From NCBI RefSeq assembly GCF_016863555.1, contig NZ_BOPC01000038.1:1-64000 (forward strand): DNA of 64,000 nucleotides. The letters run 5' to 3'. This DNA comes from Micromonospora qiuiae. Lineage in GTDB: Bacteria > Actinomycetota > Actinomycetes > Mycobacteriales > Micromonosporaceae. The translations under genes and the position numbers were made by a program. The notes below the pieces were generated by a model that saw only the letters and a program-made list of their open reading frames with translations, did not search any database and was not told the origin of the DNA. Within the stretch, counting starts at the first letter, position 1; each line of letters opens with the position of its first letter. Positions 1 to 9,090 of the stretch are shown here, piece by piece.

Positions 1-2316
1 CTGCCCGGCGGGGTAGTCGCGGGCGCGGCCGGCCCAGCCGAGAACCAGCCGTTCCTCCTCAGGAGGCAGGGCGGATACCGACGTCACCGGAGCATCGACG
101 TCGGCGAGCAGGCGGTTGAGCAGGACGAGCCACTGTCGGGCGAACCGGTCGGCCGTGGACTCGTCGAACAGGTCGGTCGCGTACTCGAGCTCCACGCCCA
201 TGTCGGGACCGCCGGTGTCGACCACTGCGAGGGTGAGATCGAACTTGGCCGTACCGGTATCGACCGAGTCCAACTCGGCGACGACGCCGCCCGGCTCCCA
301 CCGCCCGCGCGCGTGCTGGTTCATGCCGAAGGCGACCTGGGCGAGCGGCGCGCGACCCTGATCGCGATCCGGGTCCAGGGCAGCCACCAGTGAGTCGAAC
401 GGGATCTGCTGGCGTGCCTGCGCGGCGGCCGAGACGCCACGGACTCGGGTGACGAGGTCAGCGAAGGCGGGGGCGCCACTGAGGTCCGCCCGCAGCACGA
501 CGGTGTTGACGAAGAAGCCCACCAGGGTGTCGAGTTCGGGCAGTGGACGCCCGGCGGCCGGAGTCGCCACCACCACGTCGGTACGCCCCGACCAGCGGCC
601 GACCAGCAGCAGGTACGCCGTGATCAGCAGGTCGAAGACGGTGACCGAGTGGCTTCTCGCGGTGGTACGCAGCGCCGACACCGCCGACTCGGGCAGCCGG
701 TAGCGCAGCGTCCGACCGGCGTGGCTCGCCACCGCCGGTCGGCGGCGGTCGGCGGGTAGTTCCAACAGAGCCGGCGCACCGGCCAGCCGCTCCCGCCACC
801 AGGCGACCCCGTCGGCGATCACCTCCGGGGTGAGCACGGCGCGCTGCCACGCCGCGAAGTCGGCGTAGGACAACCCGGTGGCGGGCCGGTCGGCGGGCCG
901 GTCCGCCGAGTATCCGGCGAAGATTTCGGCGAGGAGGATGTCCAGGGACCAACCGTCGCAGGCCACGTGGTGGATCGATATCCAGAACAGCCACTGCTCG
1001 TCCGCGATGCGGACCAGTCCGGCCCGCAGTAGTGGGGCCGCCGCCAGGTCGAACGGCCGGGCGACTCCGGCTCGGGCCAGTCTGCGCCCCTCCTGCTCGC
1101 CATCCGCGCGGGCGTCCGACACGGTCCAGTCGATCTCGGCGGTGTCGGCGAGGCGGGGGACGGGACGACCGTTGACGGTCTTCAGCGCGGTACGCAGCAC
1201 GGGATGGGCGTCCACCACCGCCTGGGTCGCGGCGCGCAGCCGCTGCGGGTCGACCCGGCCGGCCAGCCGCACCAGCACCGGGATGTTGTAGAGAGCCGAG
1301 CCGTGACGCAAGCGGTCCATGTACCACAGCCGTTCCTGCCCGAACGACACGGCGATGTCGTCGCCGGCGCGCGGGGTGAGCGCCGGCAGCGCGGCGGCCG
1401 GCTCGCCGGCGTCGACCAGGGCGGCGAAGTCGGACAACACCGGGTGCTCGAAGAGCTGGTCCACCGTGAGGGCCACGCCGTGCCTGGCCGCTACCTGGGC
1501 GACGACCTTGGCGGCCAGCAGGGAGTGGCCGCCAAGGGCGAAGAAGTTGTCGTCCGCGCCGACCCGGTCGAGCTGGAGGGCGTCGGCCCAGCTGGCGGCG
1601 ACGGCGCGCTCGGTGGGGGTGCTGGGCTGGACCAGTCCGTCGGCCGGCGTGGGTCCCGCGGCCGTGGCAACCGCAGCGCTTCCTTTCACACCCGGAAGTG
1701 CTCCGGTGCCCGCAACCAGGTCCGCCAGGAGGCCGGCGAGACGTGCCAGGTGCGCGTCGATGCTCACCGCGCCGTACCGGTCCTCGTCGTGGTCGCAGCA
1801 CACCGCCAGCCGGCCGTCCCGCGCCGTGATCTCCAGCGTGATGTCGCACCACATCAGCTCGTGCCCGAGGTCGGCGACGTCCCGAGCGTCGAGCCCGTCG
1901 CCGAGCGCGCCGAGCGGGGCCACGGCGATTCGGACCTCACCGTCGGCCGCCGGCGCCGCCGGCAGCGCCGTCGCGGCGCGTTCGGCGAGCCGCCGCAGCG
2001 GCAGCCCCGCCTCGACCGACGACCGCACCGCCCGCAGCGAGGCGCTGTGGTCGGCGTCCCTGACGATCACTCCGATCACGGCCGCCGTCGCGGACGTGCT
2101 TCCCCGGTCGGCGGCGACCAGTGCCTGCGCCGCGGCGACGAGGACCGCGGGCGGAGTCGTACCCAGCTCGCGCGCGAGGGCGACGACGGCCTCCGCCCCG
2201 ATGTCCAGGACCCGCCGGACCTGGCCGCGACGGAACGACAGGCCGGGCATCACCTCGTCGTCTGCGGCGAGGGTCGCGGCGACGACCTGGTCGGGTTGGC
2301 TGACCTCGACGGTCAT
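1..2316 (-). CDS. Non-ribosomal peptide synthetase, PCP-condensation protein (3' end beyond window)
   Basis: Runs off the left edge; about 772 residues are visible. Residues 1-205 look like the C-terminal lobe of a condensation domain without its catalytic half. Residues 230-300 are a peptidyl carrier domain with the phosphopantetheine serine in GGHSLLA (Ser264). Residues 315-740 form a full condensation domain with the active-site motif HHVACDG (about 448-454). The visible end, WAGRARDYPAG, is typical of the linker before an adenylation domain, so at least one further domain probably lies outside. The ATG at 2316 overlaps the stop of the carbamoyltransferase gene (ATGA), so the genes are translationally coupled. 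The carrier is presumably loaded in trans by the stand-alone glycine adenylation protein two genes upstream. That pairing is inferred from context. Confidence 0.9.
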   Translation of the reverse strand, partial: MTVEVSQPDQVVAATLAADDEVMPGLSFRRGQVRRVLDIGAEAVVALARELGTTPPAVLVAAAQALVAADRGSTSATAAVIGVIVRDADHSASLRAVRSSVEAGLPLRRLAERAATALPAAPAADGEVRIAVAPLGALGDGLDARDVADLGHELMWCDITLEITARDGRLAVCCDHDEDRYGAVSIDAHLARLAGLLADLVAGTGALPGVKGSAAVATAAGPTPADGLVQPSTPTERAVAASWADALQLDRVGADDNFFALGGHSLLAAKVVAQVAARHGVALTVDQLFEHPVLSDFAALVDAGEPAAALPALTPRAGDDIAVSFGQERLWYMDRLRHGSALYNIPVLVRLAGRVDPQRLRAATQAVVDAHPVLRTALKTVNGRPVPRLADTAEIDWTVSDARADGEQEGRRLARAGVARPFDLAAAPLLRAGLVRIADEQWLFWISIHHVACDGWSLDILLAEIFAGYSADRPADRPATGLSYADFAAWQRAVLTPEVIADGVAWWRERLAGAPALLELPADRRRPAVASHAGRTLRYRLPESAVSALRTTARSHSVTVFDLLITAYLLLVGRWSGRTDVVVATPAAGRPLPELDTLVGFFVNTVVLRADLSGAPAFADLVTRVRGVSAAAQARQQIPFDSLVAALDPDRDQGRAPLAQVAFGMNQHARGRWEPGGVVAELDSVDTGTAKFDLTLAVVDTGGPDMGVELEYATDLFDESTADRFARQWLVLLNRLLADVDAPVTSVSALPPEEERLVLGWAGRARDYPAGQ

Positions 2317-4094
2317 CGCCCGTCCTCCGCGGCCGGCAGCGGCGTGACGACGTACCCGCCGATGACCAGGCGGTTCAGCCCGCCCCGCAGGAGGGTGTCG
2401 ACCGCTGTCTCCGGGGTCCGGACGATCGGCTGCCCGCGCAGATTGAAGGAGGTGTTGAGCAGGACCGGGATCCCGGTACGGGTGGCGAACGCGGTCAGCA
2501 GCTCCCACAGCAGGGGGTTGCCCTCGCGGCTGACCACCTGCACCCGGGCCGTGCCGTCGAAGTGGGTGACCGCGCCCAGCGAGGCACGGTGCTCCGGCCG
2601 GGTCCGGGTGGTGAAGAGCATGTGCCGGAAGCGCTCCTCATCGTCCGGCTCGACCTCGAAGTACGTCGATGCCGCTTCCGCGGTGACCACCGGCGCGAAC
2701 GGGCGGAAGTCCTCCCGGCGCTTGATCAGCGCGTTGATGTGGTCGCGCATCCGTTCGTCGCGCGGGTCGGCGAGGATGCTGCGGTTGCCCAGCGCGCGCG
2801 GTCCGAACTCCATCCCGCCCTGGAACCAGGAGACGACCTCTCCGCCCTCCAGCGCCTCGGCGGTCTCGGCGAGCAGGCTGGCCCGGTCCGGCACATGCCG
2901 TACGACGACGTCGGTCCGGCCGCCGATCGCCGCGCCGATCTCCTCGTCGGTGAACGACGTGCCCCAGTACGGCATCGACATCGCCGGTACGCGGGTGCCG
3001 GGCTCCTGCTGTGCCTGCACATAGAGCGCGGCCCCGATCGCCGACCCGTCGTCCCCCGCGCCGGGCGGGATGAAGATGCGGTCGAACAGCCGGCTGCGGG
3101 CGATCACGCCGTTGGCGGAGCAGTTGAGTGCTACGCCGCCGGCGTAGCACAGGTCACGCAGGCCGGTCTCGCGGCGGAAGTGCCGGAGCACGTGCACGAG
3201 GCAGAGCTCGATGACGGCCTGCAGGGCGGCCGCCACGTCGCGGTGGCGCTGCTCGATCGGCGTTCCCGGCTGGCGTGCCGGCCCGAACCGCTCGGCGAGC
3301 ATCGACAGCACCCCCCGGTGCGTCTCGCGCTCCAGCAGGTTCCGGTCGGCGGCGAGCCCGGCGACGGTGAAGGTGCCGCCGTCGAGGAGGTTGACCAGCC
3401 GCGACATCTCGGTGAAGTGCGCCCGCCGGTCACCGAAGGCGGCTAGGCCCATCACCTTGTACTCGTCCATCATCATGTCGAAGCCGAGGTACATGGTGAA
3501 GACGCCATAGAGCGTGCCGATGGAGTGCAGCGCGGGGATACGGTGCAGCACCTCGATCTTGCCGCCGGTCCCCACCGCGACGGTAAGACTTTCGGTCTCG
3601 CCCATTCCGTCAGCGACCAGGACCAGTGCCTCGTCGTACCCGCTCGGGTAGTAGGCGCTCGCCGCGTGCGCGAGGTGGTGGGGGACCGGCAGCAGCCTGT
3701 CGGCCCAGTCCACGCCGGGGAACTCCTGCCGCAGCCAGGTCAGCTGCACGTCGGGGTCGTACACCTCCGCGTACCGGGCCGCCAGGTAGGGGTCGGACAG
3801 GTCCAGGTCCGCGGCCCGGTGGGCGAAACCGTGGGCGACGACGTCGATCTCGTCGGCTTCGACGGCGACCCGTCGCAGGGCGTCGCGGATCGCGTGCACC
3901 GGGAAACTGCCGGTCGCCTTCTGCGCGGTGTACCGCTCCTCCGCCGCCGCGGCTCGCACGACGCCGTCGACCACCAGCGCCGCAGCGGAGTCCAAGCCCT
4001 GCACGATCCGGTACTCCCGGGCGCTCAGGCCCGGCAGCTCGCGTCGTTTGAAGTCCACGCTGTTGTGCAGGCCGCTGATGCCCAGAACCTTCAT
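2313..4094 (-). CDS. O-carbamoyltransferase, NodU/CmcH/TobZ family
   Basis: 593 residues, usual size for the family. Members move a carbamoyl group from carbamoyl phosphate, through carbamoyl adenylate, onto a hydroxyl group of a small molecule. The N-terminal Kae1/YrdC-like part shows HHLAHAASAYYPSG, the family's metal/nucleotide motif. The second half carries ALNCSANGV, PPGAGDDGSAIGAALY, MEFGPRALGNRSILADPR and NTSFNLRGQPIV, all characteristic. The start at 4094 was chosen because MKVLGISGLHNS is the family's N-terminus and its ATG overlaps the stop of the adenylation gene by 4 bp. It lies between two NRPS genes and is coupled to both, so the product of this cluster is probably O-carbamoylated. 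The acceptor cannot be read from sequence. Confidence 0.95.
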   Translation of the reverse strand: MKVLGISGLHNSVDFKRRELPGLSAREYRIVQGLDSAAALVVDGVVRAAAAEERYTAQKATGSFPVHAIRDALRRVAVEADEIDVVAHGFAHRAADLDLSDPYLAARYAEVYDPDVQLTWLRQEFPGVDWADRLLPVPHHLAHAASAYYPSGYDEALVLVADGMGETESLTVAVGTGGKIEVLHRIPALHSIGTLYGVFTMYLGFDMMMDEYKVMGLAAFGDRRAHFTEMSRLVNLLDGGTFTVAGLAADRNLLERETHRGVLSMLAERFGPARQPGTPIEQRHRDVAAALQAVIELCLVHVLRHFRRETGLRDLCYAGGVALNCSANGVIARSRLFDRIFIPPGAGDDGSAIGAALYVQAQQEPGTRVPAMSMPYWGTSFTDEEIGAAIGGRTDVVVRHVPDRASLLAETAEALEGGEVVSWFQGGMEFGPRALGNRSILADPRDERMRDHINALIKRREDFRPFAPVVTAEAASTYFEVEPDDEERFRHMLFTTRTRPEHRASLGAVTHFDGTARVQVVSREGNPLLWELLTAFATRTGIPVLLNTSFNLRGQPIVRTPETAVDTLLRGGLNRLVIGGYVVTPLPAAEDGR

Positions 4095-6067
4095 GACGCC
4101 TCCTCGGAACCGGTCCGACGGTGGATTTGTGCCTGTGCCGCGTCCCGCAGCGCCCGCCGGTCGACCTTCTGGCTGGGGGTGAGGGGCAGCTCTGGTAGGG
4201 CGACGATGCGTTGCGGCAGCAGCGCGGCGGGCAGCATCGCCGCCAGGTGCTCGCGGAGGACCGCGTCGGATACGACCGGCCCGTCCACGGTGGACTGGAC
4301 GTACAGGACGAGGCGCTGGTCGTCCGCTGCGGCCTCGACGACGACCGCCGCCGCCTGGGCCACCGACGGATGGCGCTCGGCATACGTCTCGATCTCCTCG
4401 AGCTCGATCCGATGCCCTCGGATCTTGACCTGGTTGTCGGCCCGGCCGTGGTAGGACAGCGTGCCGTCGGGCCGCCAGGCGCACAGGTCGCCGGTGCGGT
4501 ATGCGCCGTCCCCAAAGGCCGCGCCGGTGCGCTCGGGGTCACCGAGATACCCGACGGCGAGCTGCGGGCCGCCGACGTGGAGCTCGCCGACATGCCCTAC
4601 CGGCACGGGCCGGCCGTCGCGCCCGAGCACGGCGGCGACGGTCCCCGGTAGCGGCGCGCCGATCGGCACCGGATCGGCGACGGGCTGCCGCAGCCGGTAC
4701 GCCGTGCACCAGATGGTGGCCTCGGTTGGGCCGTAGACGTTCCAAACGGCAGCGCCGGTGTTGACCAAGCGCTGGGCCAGGTCGGCGTTGACCGCCTCGC
4801 CGCCGCAGAGCAGCGTCACACCGTCGAGATCCGGGGGCAGGTGCGGCAGGATCAGGCGCCAGCCCGAAGGGGTCGCCTGAATCAGGTCGGGTCGGCCGAC
4901 GGACAGGTGCGCGCCCAGCCGCGCCGGGTCGCGGCGCAACGCGTCGTCGACCAGTAGCAGCCGACCGCCCGTGGCCAACGGGAGGAAGAGCTCCAGCAGG
5001 GAGATGTCGAAGGTCAGCGCGGTCGTGCCAGCGACGGTGGGGGCCCGGAGTTCCAGCAGTTCGGTGAAGGTCGTGACGCAGTGCGCCAGCGCAGCGTGCG
5101 ACACCCCGACCACCTTCGGGCGGCCGGTCGAGCCCGACGTCGACATCGCGTACGCCAGCTCGCCGCCGGTCGGCCCGTCCTCTCCGGCGGCCGCGCGGCC
5201 GCTGCCCGGCTCATCGGTGGCCGGTAGGTCGCCGTCGAGGGAAGTGATGACCCGACAGCCGTCCCGGGTCACCGTGGCCAGGTCGGCGACGACGGCGAAC
5301 CGCGCGCCCGCGGTGTCGAACAGGGTGTCCAGCCGGGCCCGCGGATGGCTGGGATCGACAGGCAGGAAGGCGGCCCGCAGCGACCAGATGGCCAGCAGCG
5401 CGGCCACCAGCTCGGCCCGGCGGGGAAGGCCGATCGCGACGACGTCGCCGGGACGCACGCCCTCAGCGCGCAGCACGTCCGCGTACCGGTCGGCCAGCGC
5501 GACGAGCGCGGCGTAGTTGACCGTACGCCGGGCGTCCTCGATCGCGATGGCGTTCGGTTTGGCGGCCGCCACCGCGCGGATGAGCGCCGGCACGCTTCCG
5601 GCCGGGGTGCTGCCCGGGCGGTGGGCGGACGCGATGATCCGGGTGTCCTCCTCGCCGCACAGGTCGATCGCGCCGACCGGGCAGTCGGTCTCGGTCGCGC
5701 CGTCGAGCACCCGGTTGACGCGGCCGGTCAACAGCGCCGCGTCCGCCGACGGCTCGACGTGGCGCCCGGTGACCAGGATGCGCGGGCCGTGACCGTGCCG
5801 GACCTCGATCGCGGTCGGGCGGCGCCCGCCGTCCGGACCGAGGCGGCGCAGGTGCCTTTCGACGGTCGCGGTGAGCACGGACAGGGGTGCCCGCCACGGC
5901 AGTGACACCGTCATGCCCGCCCCGGTCGCCGGGTCAACCAGATGTCCCGTGACGGTCTCCGCGGCCGCTGCGCGGGCGAGCACCAGCAGGCTGGCCACCA
6001 CCCGGTCGACATTGACCCGGGTGCTATCCCCGGTGGGTGCGTGCGCGGTTTCCAACGATCGCGTCAT
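4091..6067 (-). CDS. Stand-alone NRPS adenylation protein, predicted glycine-activating
   Basis: 658 residues. Activates an amino acid as its adenylate. Core motifs are clear: STSGSTGRPK (310-318), GELHVGG, YRTGDL (523-528), GRADNQVKIRGHRIEL (541-556) and the A10 lysine in PSQKVDRRAL (Lys634). Aligning to GrsA by eye gives the pocket residues D354, I355, L358, Q397, L420, G422, V444, I452, W453 and K634. DILQLGVIWK is within one conservative change of the classical glycine code DILQLGLIWK. No carrier domain follows; the protein ends about 18 residues after A10. Residues 1-155 resemble the tail of a condensation domain rather than a complete one. The start at 6067 was preferred over 6097 because AGGGAG sits 6-7 bases upstream. 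It is the first gene of the minus-strand operon. Confidence 0.93.
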   Translation of the reverse strand: MTRSLETAHAPTGDSTRVNVDRVVASLLVLARAAAAETVTGHLVDPATGAGMTVSLPWRAPLSVLTATVERHLRRLGPDGGRRPTAIEVRHGHGPRILVTGRHVEPSADAALLTGRVNRVLDGATETDCPVGAIDLCGEEDTRIIASAHRPGSTPAGSVPALIRAVAAAKPNAIAIEDARRTVNYAALVALADRYADVLRAEGVRPGDVVAIGLPRRAELVAALLAIWSLRAAFLPVDPSHPRARLDTLFDTAGARFAVVADLATVTRDGCRVITSLDGDLPATDEPGSGRAAAGEDGPTGGELAYAMSTSGSTGRPKVVGVSHAALAHCVTTFTELLELRAPTVAGTTALTFDISLLELFLPLATGGRLLLVDDALRRDPARLGAHLSVGRPDLIQATPSGWRLILPHLPPDLDGVTLLCGGEAVNADLAQRLVNTGAAVWNVYGPTEATIWCTAYRLRQPVADPVPIGAPLPGTVAAVLGRDGRPVPVGHVGELHVGGPQLAVGYLGDPERTGAAFGDGAYRTGDLCAWRPDGTLSYHGRADNQVKIRGHRIELEEIETYAERHPSVAQAAAVVVEAAADDQRLVLYVQSTVDGPVVSDAVLREHLAAMLPAALLPQRIVALPELPLTPSQKVDRRALRDAAQAQIHRRTGSEEAS

Positions 6068-6238: not shown

Positions 6239-6483
6239 CGGGTGGAGCCAGCCATGGATCAAACCGGGCATGCCGCTGAAGATGGGGCAGATACCCCTCG
6301 CAGCGATGCATTTTCTCGCGGTTTGCCCAGTTCGGGCATTGAGGTGCCACACCGCCAGGCGGACCCACGCTGGCAGGAGTGTGCCAAGTGGAAACGGGAT
6401 CATCCCTTCACATGGTCTTTTGTGTGACCCTGAAGATGCCTTTCACCGGACCGCATCGGCGCCACTCAGCCAAGGAGAAGGAC

Positions 6484-7734
6484 ATGTCACGGATCCTCGC
6501 CACGCGCAGGATGCGGCTGTACGTATTGGCCGACACGGCGTCCAACCTCGGCGACTTCGCGCTGTTTCTCGCGATGGCGATCTGGGTGAAGACGATAAGT
6601 GGGAGCACGTCGGCGGCGGCCCTGGTGATGTTCTCGTTCGCCGCCGGCAGCCTGCTGCTTCCCGCGGCGGGTCTAATCACCGACCGGGTACGCCGTCGAC
6701 CCCTGCTCATCGCGGCGAACCTCGCCCTCGCCGCGGTGGTCCTGCTGCTGCTCCTGGTCGGTGGCGCGCACCACGTCTGGCTCGTGTACGCGGTGATGTT
6801 CGCCTACGGCGCGCTGGGCAGCGTGACCGGGCCGGCCCAACTGGCGCTGCTGCCCTCCCTCGTGCCCAAGGAGTCGCTGGGCGACGCCAACGGCCTGATC
6901 CAGTCGGTCCGCGGCCTGCTGCGGGTCTTCGCACCCGTCATCGGCGCGGGCCTGTTCGCCTGGCTCGGCCCGGAAGCGGTCATCGTCATCGACGCCACGC
7001 TGTTCGTGCTGGCTGCCCTGGCGCTCCTGGCGATCAAGGTCAACGAGCCGGCGCCCACGCCGTCCGAGGGGCACTGGCTGACCGAGATCACCGCTGGCCT
7101 GCGCTTCATCAGCCGTACGGTGACCCTGCGCCAGCTCGTCACCTCCTGCGGCCTGGCGATGCTGGTGCTGGGCTTCTTCGAGTCGATCGGGCTGGCGGTG
7201 GTCACCTCGGGCCTCGGGCACGCACCGACGTTCCTCGGCGTGCTCGGCGTGGCCCAGGCAATTGGGACCATCGCCGGGGGGATCTCCGCGGGCGCGGTGA
7301 TGCGCAGGACCAGCGAGGGCATGATCGTCATCATCGGCCTGGTGCTGGTCGCCGTCTCCAGCATGCTCCTGATGATCCAGGTGACGGCCCTGGTGATTGC
7401 CGCGATGGCACTGCTCGGCCTCTGCATCCCGTGGCTGGTCGTCGGTGCCACCACCGCGTTGCAGCGCCGTACGCCGGAGAACCTGCTCGGCCGCGCCTCC
7501 GCCGCCTTCGAATTCGCGGTGACGGTGCCGCAGACACTGTCGATCGCCGTCGGCGCGGCGCTGATCGCCCTGCTGGACTACCGGTTGCTGCTGGGCATCG
7601 TGGCCGCCGCCGTGACGGTCTCGGCGGTCTACCTGGTCACCCGCTCCGAGCAACGCCCACGCCCCCCCGAGCAGCCCACCGATGTGCTCGTTGCGGCGGA
7701 CGATTCGGTTGCCGCGCAGGAGTCGGTCAGATAG
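6484..7734 (+). CDS. MFS exporter (MFS_3/EntS-like)
   Basis: 416 residues with about 12 hydrophobic segments, the usual size and pattern of the major facilitator superfamily. The N-terminus (LYVLADTASNLGDFALFL) and the loop LITDRVRRRPLL between segments 2 and 3 match the DRxxRR-type motif of drug and siderophore exporters. The start at 6484 is set by AAGGAGAAGG just upstream; an upstream in-frame ATG at 6379 lacks such a site and codes no membrane segment. It is divergent from the NRPS/carbamoyltransferase operon, so it probably exports that cluster's product. The substrate is inferred only from position. The C-terminal tail after about residue 395 is charged and not conserved in type. Confidence 0.92.
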   Translation: MSRILATRRMRLYVLADTASNLGDFALFLAMAIWVKTISGSTSAAALVMFSFAAGSLLLPAAGLITDRVRRRPLLIAANLALAAVVLLLLLVGGAHHVWLVYAVMFAYGALGSVTGPAQLALLPSLVPKESLGDANGLIQSVRGLLRVFAPVIGAGLFAWLGPEAVIVIDATLFVLAALALLAIKVNEPAPTPSEGHWLTEITAGLRFISRTVTLRQLVTSCGLAMLVLGFFESIGLAVVTSGLGHAPTFLGVLGVAQAIGTIAGGISAGAVMRRTSEGMIVIIGLVLVAVSSMLLMIQVTALVIAAMALLGLCIPWLVVGATTALQRRTPENLLGRASAAFEFAVTVPQTLSIAVGAALIALLDYRLLLGIVAAAVTVSAVYLVTRSEQRPRPPEQPTDVLVAADDSVAAQESVR

Positions 7735-7770: not shown

Positions 7771-9090
7771 ATGGCTACCCATCAGGTGTCGGCGCTACTT
7801 CTCGCCCTGGCAGCGATCTCGCTACTGGCCGCCATGGCGGGAGCGGCGGCCCGACGGCTGCGGCAACCGCCCGTCATCGGCGAGGTGGCCTTGGGTATCC
7901 TGCTCGGCCCGACGCTGCTGAACGGGCTCGTCTCGGACACGCTCTTCCCGGCCGACATCCGCCCGTTCCTCAGCGCCCTGGCGGCCCTCGGCGTCGTCCT
8001 GTTCATGTTCACCGTCGGGGCGGAACTGAACGCCGGCCTGCTCCGGGGACGACGCATGGTCGCCGGGACCGTCGCCGCCGGGTCCGTCGCCGTCCCGTTC
8101 GGGCTCGGCGCGCTGTTGGCCCTCTACCTGTTCAACAGACATCCGACCGACAACAAGACCGGGTTTGTGCTGTTCATGGGAGCCGCCGTGGCGGTAACCG
8201 CGTTCCCGGTGCTGGCTCGCATCCTCACCGACCGTGGCCTCAGCCGCACCTGGCTCGGTAGCGTCGCGCTGGCCTGCGCCGCCATCGACGACATACTTGC
8301 CTGGTCGCTGCTCGCTGTCGTCGTCGCCATCTGCACAGCCGGTTTCGGGTCGCCGTTGCTGCTGCTGTTCCTGCCGTACATGCTGCTCATGCTCACGGTC
8401 GTCCGGCCCATGCTGAGGCGCCTGCTCAAGGAAGGCGGGGCCAGCTTCGCGCGGCCGGCACCCATGGTCATCACGCTGGTGGGCCTGCTGACTTCCGCGG
8501 CCTTCACCGAGTGGATCGGCCTGCACTTCATCTTCGGTGCCTTCTTCTTCGGGGCGATCATGCCCCGCGCGGCCTCAGCGCCCGAGGACGACGTCACCGC
8601 GCAGGTGAGTGACCGGATCTCGCACCTGAACGGCCGCCTGCTGCTGCCGGTCTTCTTCGTCGTCGCCGGCCTGAGCGTCGACCTGTCCAAAATGGATGTC
8701 GACGACCTCGTCGAACTCGTTCTCATCCTGGTCGTCGCGGTGGGCGGAAAGTTCTTCGGCGCCTTCACCGCCGCCCGTCTCGGCGGCGTACCCACCCGGC
8801 CGGCGAGCGCGCTCGCCATCCTGATGAACACCCGCGGCCTGACCGAACTCGTCATCCTGAGCGTCGGCCTGGAACTCGGCATGCTCGACAGCCCGCTCTA
8901 CTCCTCGATGGTCGTGATGGCCCTGATCACGACAGCGATGGCCGGGCCGCTCCTGCAGCTCATCTACCCGTTGCCGGCCGCACCCGCCACGCCCGCGAAA
9001 CTCCAGGCCGCGTGGCAGCACCAGTTCCGCGGCACCGAGCGCGTCGGCGAACGTGAGCTTGGCCGGACAACACCCGCCCAGGTCGAGTAG
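7771..9090 (+). CDS. Cation/proton antiporter, CPA2 (KefB/NapA) family
   Basis: 439 residues, 12-13 hydrophobic segments. Begins with the family pattern of a first helix followed by RLRQPPVIGEVALGILLGP. A helix with the conserved acidic pair is visible in CAAIDDILAWSLL, and NTRGLTELVIL is typical of the C-terminal half. No KTN/RCK nucleotide-binding domain follows, so it is the membrane part only. It probably exchanges Na+ or K+ for protons at the plasma membrane. It starts 36 bases after the MFS gene and is likely co-transcribed with it. Such antiporters are common passengers in actinobacterial natural-product clusters, where they may serve export or self-protection. That role is inferred. 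Confidence 0.93.
   Translation: MATHQVSALLLALAAISLLAAMAGAAARRLRQPPVIGEVALGILLGPTLLNGLVSDTLFPADIRPFLSALAALGVVLFMFTVGAELNAGLLRGRRMVAGTVAAGSVAVPFGLGALLALYLFNRHPTDNKTGFVLFMGAAVAVTAFPVLARILTDRGLSRTWLGSVALACAAIDDILAWSLLAVVVAICTAGFGSPLLLLFLPYMLLMLTVVRPMLRRLLKEGGASFARPAPMVITLVGLLTSAAFTEWIGLHFIFGAFFFGAIMPRAASAPEDDVTAQVSDRISHLNGRLLLPVFFVVAGLSVDLSKMDVDDLVELVLILVVAVGGKFFGAFTAARLGGVPTRPASALAILMNTRGLTELVILSVGLELGMLDSPLYSSMVVMALITTAMAGPLLQLIYPLPAAPATPAKLQAAWQHQFRGTERVGERELGRTTPAQVE

Follow-up and report, generated by a model that had tools for sequence, protein, structure and literature searches.

At the start of a 64,000-nucleotide stretch of the Micromonospora qiuiae genome (the window; positions 1 to 64,000 of contig NZ_BOPC01000038.1, assembly GCF_016863555.1), three coupled minus-strand genes encode a stand-alone adenylation (A) protein, a carbamoyltransferase (CmT) and a protein with carrier and condensation (C) domains (Table 1). 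Taken as a whole, this locus appears on balance to be a split, carbamoylating initiation module of a nonribosomal peptide synthetase (NRPS) whose product would start with N-carbamoylglycine, and it is likely that the CmT acts on the starter while the latter is held on its carrier. The stand-alone A protein would activate glycine, as its pocket code suggests, and, judging from the domain count, would load it in trans on the first peptidyl carrier protein (PCP) domain of the third protein. The CmT would then make carbamoyl-adenylate and with it carbamoylate the amine of Gly-S-PCP, yielding N-carbamoylglycyl-S-PCP, a step to which recurrent gene order, a CmT-PCP fusion and the chemistry point. 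Because glycine has no hydroxyl, the acceptor would be the amine and N-carbamoylation is the more likely reaction. Finally, the next C domain would take the capped glycine as its donor, and the peptide would begin with a ureido-acetyl unit.

The three-gene locus

The three genes are joined by two ATGA stop/start overlaps, and the order A protein, CmT, carrier protein was kept in 5/5 orthologous loci, in agreement with the coupling proposed in the preliminary description. Among 354 genomes of the same family, 195 had a CmT match with an E value of 1e-60 or lower, and only five, M. qiuiae included, had a CmT at 91% identity or more. In the four other genomes, all of the same genus, the orthologues were 91 to 92% (CmT), 71 to 79% (A protein) and 70 to 73% (first 310 residues of the third protein) identical, and because of this conservation the three-gene set is not a chance association. 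The reading frames are intact save the third, which is cut after its C domain because window base 1 is also base 1 of the contig (C38 in our numbering, where G, C and L denote genomes, contigs and loci), part of a draft genome of 211 contigs. This contig end and the N-terminal regions of the first (150 residues) and third (232 residues) proteins are two features beyond those described previously.

The A protein contains AMP-binding and AMP-binding_C domains with no PCP match in Pfam, so that the earlier view of a split NRPS with a carrier-less A protein stands. Its pocket code, DILQLGVIW, together with the A10 lysine K634, reads DILQLGVIWK as first reported; we take this code (DILQLGxIWK) to be that of glycine, and the A motifs look intact. 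Profile comparison of residues 1 to 150 gave no match to the C-terminal half (C-lobe) or N-terminal half of C domains, PCP or A (0.1 to 0.9%), and an alpha/beta fold was predicted, partly with confidence, at residues about 15 to 105. This extension is perhaps a shrunken C-lobe, an identity left unsupported by the 0.9% profile match. For the complete A protein, the AlphaFold model was poor (mean predicted local distance difference test score [pLDDT] 46.5), and its structural matches mostly covered residues 152 to 649.

The CmT matches Carbam_trans_N (11 to 346 of 346 positions) and Carbam_trans_C (1 to 168 of 170), both near full length. Among solved structures, its nearest relatives are GdmN and the novobiocin enzyme, with TobZ also close. 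The motifs HHxAHA and DGxGE were kept in 19/19 aligned sequences and are also present in the alignment with GdmN; likewise kept in 19/19 were H139 and H143 (of HHxAHA), D162 and D349, presumably the metal-site positions of TobZ. The assignment to the TobZ/GdmN family made in the preliminary description therefore holds on both Pfam domains, whereas the prefix in "O-carbamoyltransferase" is doubtful, since it comes from the family name only and the neighboring carrier is presumably loaded with glycine.

In the third protein, the starter PCP has neither an A domain in cis nor a complete C domain ahead of it, only a C-lobe, and its GGHS motif was invariant in 6/6 aligned sequences. The 232 residues before this carrier matched the C-terminal half of C domains (hhalign: 96.8% and E 2.4e-10 when six sequences were used, 92.6% and E 4.6e-7 when only the five orthologues were), with no match to the N-terminal half of C domains (0.3 to 0.4%) or to PCP or A domains (0.2 to 0.5%). 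Although the model of the first 310 residues was weak (mean pLDDT 50.4), residues about 30 to 70 and 160 to 210 were better and match C-lobes, and residues about 25 to 210 aligned mostly with the second halves of C domains (VIA-align, Z 11.7 to 13.7 among the 50 matches listed). The C-lobe, which lacks the catalytic half, is probably what is left of a C-A-PCP loading module, with a structural or docking role. Thus, the PCP and C domains of the "PCP-condensation protein" described earlier are present, but the protein is cut by the contig end and goes on to A-PCP in relatives (G248, G268 and G221), having the form C-lobe-PCP-C-A-PCP (1407 residues) in G248.

A special class of C domain following starter carriers was also considered and was rejected, as these domains were not one group in a quick tree (4 changes; long-branch warnings), in which those of the window clade adjoin an ordinary C domain of the same cluster. 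Because they form no single group, no special donor type is claimed. The condensation motif itself varies elsewhere: HHxxxDG ends in Q, as HHL(I/V)ADQ, in six loci of the G186 type described below (L068, L074, L075, L076, L078 and L081), and reads HHIVCDQ in a Kitasatospora protein (L047), both unlike the window.

Table 1. Features at the start of the window (nucleotide positions in the window; residue numbers refer to the encoded protein)
Feature	Position	Strand	Basis
Stand-alone adenylation protein, 658 aa	4091..6067	-	Pfam, code, four orthologues 71-79%
N-terminal extension of the A protein, 150 aa	5618..6067	-	no profile match
AMP-binding domain, residues 165-508	4544-5575	-	Pfam
AMP-binding_C, residues 558-634	about 4166-4396	-	Pfam
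ATGA stop/start overlap, A protein/CmT	4091..4094	-	sequence
CmT, GdmN/TobZ type, 593 aa	2313..4094	-	PF02543 + PF16861; GdmN E 1.3e-104; motifs
ATGA stop/start overlap, CmT/C-lobe-PCP-C protein	2313..2316	-	sequence
C-lobe-PCP-C protein, open at window base 1	1..2316	-	Pfam
C-lobe without the HHxxxDG half, residues about 25-210	1687..2244	-	hhalign, structure alignment
Starter PCP, PP-binding residues 238-301, GGHS phosphopantetheine serine	1414..1605	-	Pfam
Complete Condensation domain, residues 319-756, intact motif HHVACDG	49..1362	-	Pfam; motif
MFS (major facilitator superfamily) exporter, divergent, exact start uncertain	6379..7734	+	Pfam PF07690/PF05977; same place in four relatives
CPA2-type cation/proton antiporter, divergent	7771..9090	+	PF00999; TIGR00932 below cut-off; same place in four relatives

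Carbamoyltransferases and their neighboring carriers

The association of related CmTs with starter carriers was examined in a hand-made list of 121 CmT sequences, drawn from 30 family-search matches with loci, from a class search, from a scan of named genomes (the top 80 of 584 relatives) and from two plasmid records; the family search had listed at least 150 CmT matches, of which the 30 with loci were taken and most were replaced by longer stretches. CmTs with at least 500 bits to the window CmT (n = 25; 48% identity or more) were treated as a subfamily, leaving 96 others. A CmT was scored positive when the next same-strand gene, looking downstream only, started with a carrier, either bare or preceded by a C-lobe, or with a loading A domain, again with or without a C-lobe, or when the CmT was itself fused to a PCP. 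This trait was found in 22/25 subfamily CmTs (20 by script, with L078 added and L090 assigned manually, its part-hits being a C-lobe and then an A domain) versus 2/96 of the others examined, namely L131 and L081 (G303), the latter being a broken subfamily member; L080, with a C domain only, was uncounted. Under a stricter control, any PCP or C domain occurred in the stretches of 15/93 distant loci, and the trait in 2 of these 15 (again L081 and L131). Two entries among the 96 (L177 from G735, and L096) represent a single position in one genome, and six have under 1000 bases after the CmT, which could hide a neighbor. In a tree of 57 CmT sequences (L131 left out), the trait needed 4 changes compared with a shuffled mean of 18.2, and 22 of the 23 sequences with the trait (L081 included) formed, with three exceptions lacking it, one group of 25 supported by an SH-aLRT (approximate likelihood-ratio test) value of 93, below the starred level; the remaining one, from Nesterenkonia (L093), lay outside.

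Two further observations concern the CmT genes themselves. At L081:7038-10572 (G303), the gene is in two pieces separated by a 435-residue open frame, a pattern suggestive of an insertion. A second CmT group (L082 to L085, from G331, G335, G337 and G248), 42 to 44% identical to the window CmT, belongs to a different kind of cluster, in which each CmT is preceded by two genes and a protein of 580 to 624 residues with only a partial C-domain match.

About eight arrangements were distinguished around the subfamily CmTs: (i) A, CmT, C-lobe-PCP-C in the five loci of the window clade; (ii) a protein ending in a thioesterase (TE) match, CmT, PCP-C-A-PCP and a stand-alone A protein in G585 and G714; (iii) a CmT-PCP fusion (both CmT domains plus PP-binding at residues 596 to 656, by Pfam) with a stand-alone A protein beside it in G056 (L077:9164-11149); (iv) a protein ending in a TE match, CmT and PCP-C-A(-PCP) in G014, G038, G028 and Streptomyces durbertensis; (v) a protein ending in a Ser-type A-PCP, CmT and PCP-C-A-PCP in the G186 type (G186, G155, G031, G298, G271 and the broken G303); (vi) CmT and C-lobe-PCP-C-PCP on a Kitasatospora plasmid; (vii) CmT and an A-containing loading protein, namely C-lobe-A(DILQLGLIW)-PCP-ketosynthase (KS) in a Planctomycetota metagenome-assembled genome (MAG), about 250 residues followed by A(DIAQVGVVW)-PCP-KS-acyltransferase-dehydratase-ketoreductase on a Burkholderia glumae plasmid (L048), and C-lobe-A, then cut, in a Latescibacterota MAG; and (viii) CmT and about 200 residues followed by A(DAWTICMVH)-PCP-C-A-PCP in Nesterenkonia. 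Since the preceding protein ends in TE, the carrier-first proteins of arrangement (iv), G585 and G714 do not seem to be continuations of it. In the Planctomycetota MAG and on the Burkholderia plasmid, the CmT lies next to an A-PCP loading module that has a Gly or Gly-like code and belongs to a polyketide line. As read from domain order, the CmT in these arrangements adjoins a carrier or loading module that is not preceded by a complete C domain, which is the place of a first building block. On the B. glumae plasmid (L048:15495-41752), an aminotransferase, a FAD oxidoreductase and a gene annotated bioB accompany the CmT and the glycine-like loading module, which leads into polyketide synthases.

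Considering these arrangements, two other roles of the CmT were weighed. The enzyme could be a late-tailoring O-carbamoyltransferase acting on a hydroxyl, either in the completed peptide or in a later residue, its operon position being inherited and without mechanistic meaning. The characterized members of the family (GdmN, the novobiocin enzyme and TobZ), which are its closest solved relatives, are O-carbamoyltransferases of small molecules acting on hydroxyls of sugars or macrolactams, and a Ser-type A-PCP precedes the CmT in the G186 type. Moreover, the palmerolide line, which has a glycine unit and a CmT, bears its carbamate at macrolide C-11 in the passages cited (PMC8636102). We nevertheless regard late tailoring as unlikely, though by no means negligible, in view of the adjacency or fusion to a starter carrier or loading module counted above, which spans varied downstream lines (NRPS and NRPS-polyketide synthase [PKS]) and several phyla in the subfamily and is rare among the other CmTs examined. 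In the second role, a free or side-chain hydroxyl amino acid (of the O-carbamoyl-Ser/-Thr type) would be carbamoylated and then loaded by the A protein, the Gly-type code having been misread. Thr-type (G193) and Ser-type (G186 type) A domains do lie near subfamily CmTs; the window and Planctomycetota codes, differing at 1/9 places, both describe small Gly-type pockets, whereas a carbamoylated side chain would be expected to need a larger one, and this role seems improbable.

Several points weigh against a glycine starter N-carbamoylated on its carrier, both in the window and across the subfamily. The family precedents are O-carbamoyltransferases, as noted, N-carbamoylation by the TobZ/GdmN fold is inferred here from genomic context, and the glycine assignment comes from a code table. 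Three of the 25 subfamily CmTs (L086 in G193, L087 in G252 and L079 in G223) adjoin no starter carrier; in L086, one 203-residue gene, thioesterase-like by sequence, separates the CmT from a Thr-type loading A-PCP protein, so that a Thr-type loading A domain lies two genes from this CmT. Conversely, an A-PCP protein lies immediately upstream of the distant CmT of L040, a position outside the downstream-only scoring. Near-copies (five orthologues here, five of the G186 type and three of the G014 type) inflate the counts, and about eight independent arrangements are represented. In most PCP-first loci outside the window clade, including those of arrangements (iv) to (vi), the stretches showed no A domain that would load the first carrier. 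In addition, non-Gly codes occur in G585 (DMPWIGAVV), G714 (DMPYVAGVC), G056 (DMAAGGGVA) and Nesterenkonia (DAWTICMVH), and O-carbamoylserine is possible in the G186 type, where the Ser-type A-PCP ends the upstream protein.

Taking both sides into account, we advance more tentatively than the reading of the window itself a broader proposal: a dedicated subfamily of TobZ-fold CmTs, widespread and undescribed, may N-carbamoylate starters on their carriers in the synthesis of nonribosomal peptides and of peptide-polyketide hybrids, whether the carrier is loaded in cis, loaded in trans or fused to the CmT. Their products would be ureido-capped, and the one fold would perform both N- and O-carbamoylation.

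The assembly line in relatives and in M. qiuiae

The locus is complete, in the same order, in G248 and G268; in G168, gene content and order agree up to the flavin reductase, the end of the stretch examined, and the version in G221 is shorter. In G248, the A protein and the CmT are followed by the C-lobe-PCP-C-A-PCP protein, C-A-PCP-C-A-PCP (2206 residues) and (C-A-PCP)x3-TE (3478 residues). These three NRPS proteins contain 2+2+3 = 7 PP-binding domains versus 1+2+3 = 6 AMP-binding domains, and the first carrier alone lacks an A domain, its gene lying two genes downstream of that for the sole carrier-less A protein. Because seven carriers face six A domains in cis, the stand-alone A protein presumably serves the first carrier. 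Amide-forming stand-alone A domains are known (Maruyama 2012, as cited in PMC4787774), and the A protein could in principle be a ligase of this kind, comparable to the one in streptothricin biosynthesis, with no link to the PCP of the third protein; the pairing of a single A-less carrier with a single carrier-less A protein, coupled in one operon with the unserved carrier two genes on, makes this very improbable. What had been described as a three-gene system is better understood as the beginning of an NRPS line with seven carriers, truncated where the contig ends. Along the G248 line the codes read DILQLGVIW, DAFFYGITF, DVFSIAMVH, DPFAYGISI, DVGDMGAID, DVAHIGAID and DTWDMGFND, of which only the glycine code was assigned.

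An overlap search found no good match to the first 150 bases of C38 elsewhere in the M. qiuiae genome, and therefore further parts of the cluster were located by protein similarity to G248. They revealed a cluster broken over at least four contigs: C38; C149 (L063), 84% identical to the second NRPS and 72% to the end of the first; C144 (L064), 83% to the end of the second NRPS and 82% to the last; and C31 (L186), with the TE region (78%), a halogenase, a radical SAM protein (87%) and HalD. Relative to G248, three pieces are missing from these contigs, other contigs not having been searched for them: the greater part of one A domain at the C38/C149 break, part of the second NRPS at the C149/C144 break, and the greater part of the third module of the last NRPS at the C144/C31 break.

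Beyond the NRPS genes, G248 encodes an MbtH-like protein, a Trp_halogenase, a flavin reductase, a B12-binding radical SAM protein, an alpha/beta hydrolase, HalD (PF23169), a methyltransferase, a second MbtH-like protein and a TauD-type oxygenase, in this order, the two MbtH-like proteins being recognized by sequence rather than by profile. The Trp_halogenase-type enzyme, the HalD-type halogenase and the B12-binding radical SAM enzyme are encoded at L186:1092-6935 on C31 of M. qiuiae and at L057:10998-16744 in G248, and because the cluster encodes these enzymes its product is likely to be chlorinated. Upstream of the A protein, the divergent MFS exporter and antiporter noted earlier were confirmed by Pfam, and matching genes, recognized by their sequences, lie at the same position in the four relatives, including G248, where the MFS counterpart is 87% identical.

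In G221, the first NRPS (L055:10300-14445) follows the third gene of G248 to about residue 800 and then the last A-PCP of the fourth; the second NRPS gene is absent, two modules are lost, and the line is shortened from seven to five carriers. As read from these sequences, the shortening is a natural recombination near a C/A junction. The last NRPS gene of G221 (L059:482-10935) consists of two overlapping frames of 3191 and 340 residues, as after a frameshift or an assembly error.

Comparison with known systems and significance

The closest parallels to the proposed module are the formylating F-A-PCP modules. In linear gramicidin (LgrA), the F domain formylates the PCP-bound starter, and there is no extension without formylation, while conglobatin (CongA) and phthoxazolin (PtxE) are proposed to start with formyl-Gly-S-PCP (the passages cited of PMC4504003, PMC5764310 and PMC5053139). 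In these modules, as proposed here, the starter (Val or Gly) is N-capped on the first PCP, which for linear gramicidin has been shown and for the other two proposed, and the starter carrier likewise has no complete C domain ahead of it. They differ in having the formyltransferase domain in cis; the window has a separate CmT of an unrelated family, split A and PCP, and a C-lobe before the PCP. Because no formyltransferase domain was matched by Pfam in any of the three proteins, the locus is not a member of this type, though it may work alike.

With the GdmN/novobiocin/TobZ family (PF02543 + PF16861), the CmT shares both domains at full length and the catalytic motifs; unlike those enzymes and their hydroxyl acceptors, its subfamily is tied to starter carriers, with one member fused to a PCP. 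In capreomycin biosynthesis (CmnI), a carrier is loaded by the A domain of another module, as proposed here (the portion cited of PMC12400406); unlike that case, the A-less carrier here stands at the start of the line, with the CmT gene between A and carrier. Padanamide can be likened by title alone, which names an N-carbamoylation step, of a 2,4-diaminobutyrate unit, in a PKS/NRPS pathway. In 2015, PRISM allowed carbamoyltransferases to act at any free hydroxyl (the section cited of PMC4787774).

The literature searched, which was short of most subscription papers, contained no cluster with a stand-alone A protein, a CmT and a carrier, and no CmT acting on a carrier-bound starter. The initial statement that no described cluster has this exact set is upheld to that extent, but the set is not isolated, as related CmTs stand beside starter carriers in several lineages. 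To our knowledge, N-capping of the first residue on its carrier has so far been known as formylation, in addition to lipid or aryl acylation by C domains. If the present proposal is true, this chemistry would gain a carbamoyl counterpart that genome-mining tools would miss. It would also offer a genomic rule, by which a CmT beside a starter carrier would indicate ureido-capped peptides or polyketides, and a route to a TobZ-fold N-carbamoyltransferase.

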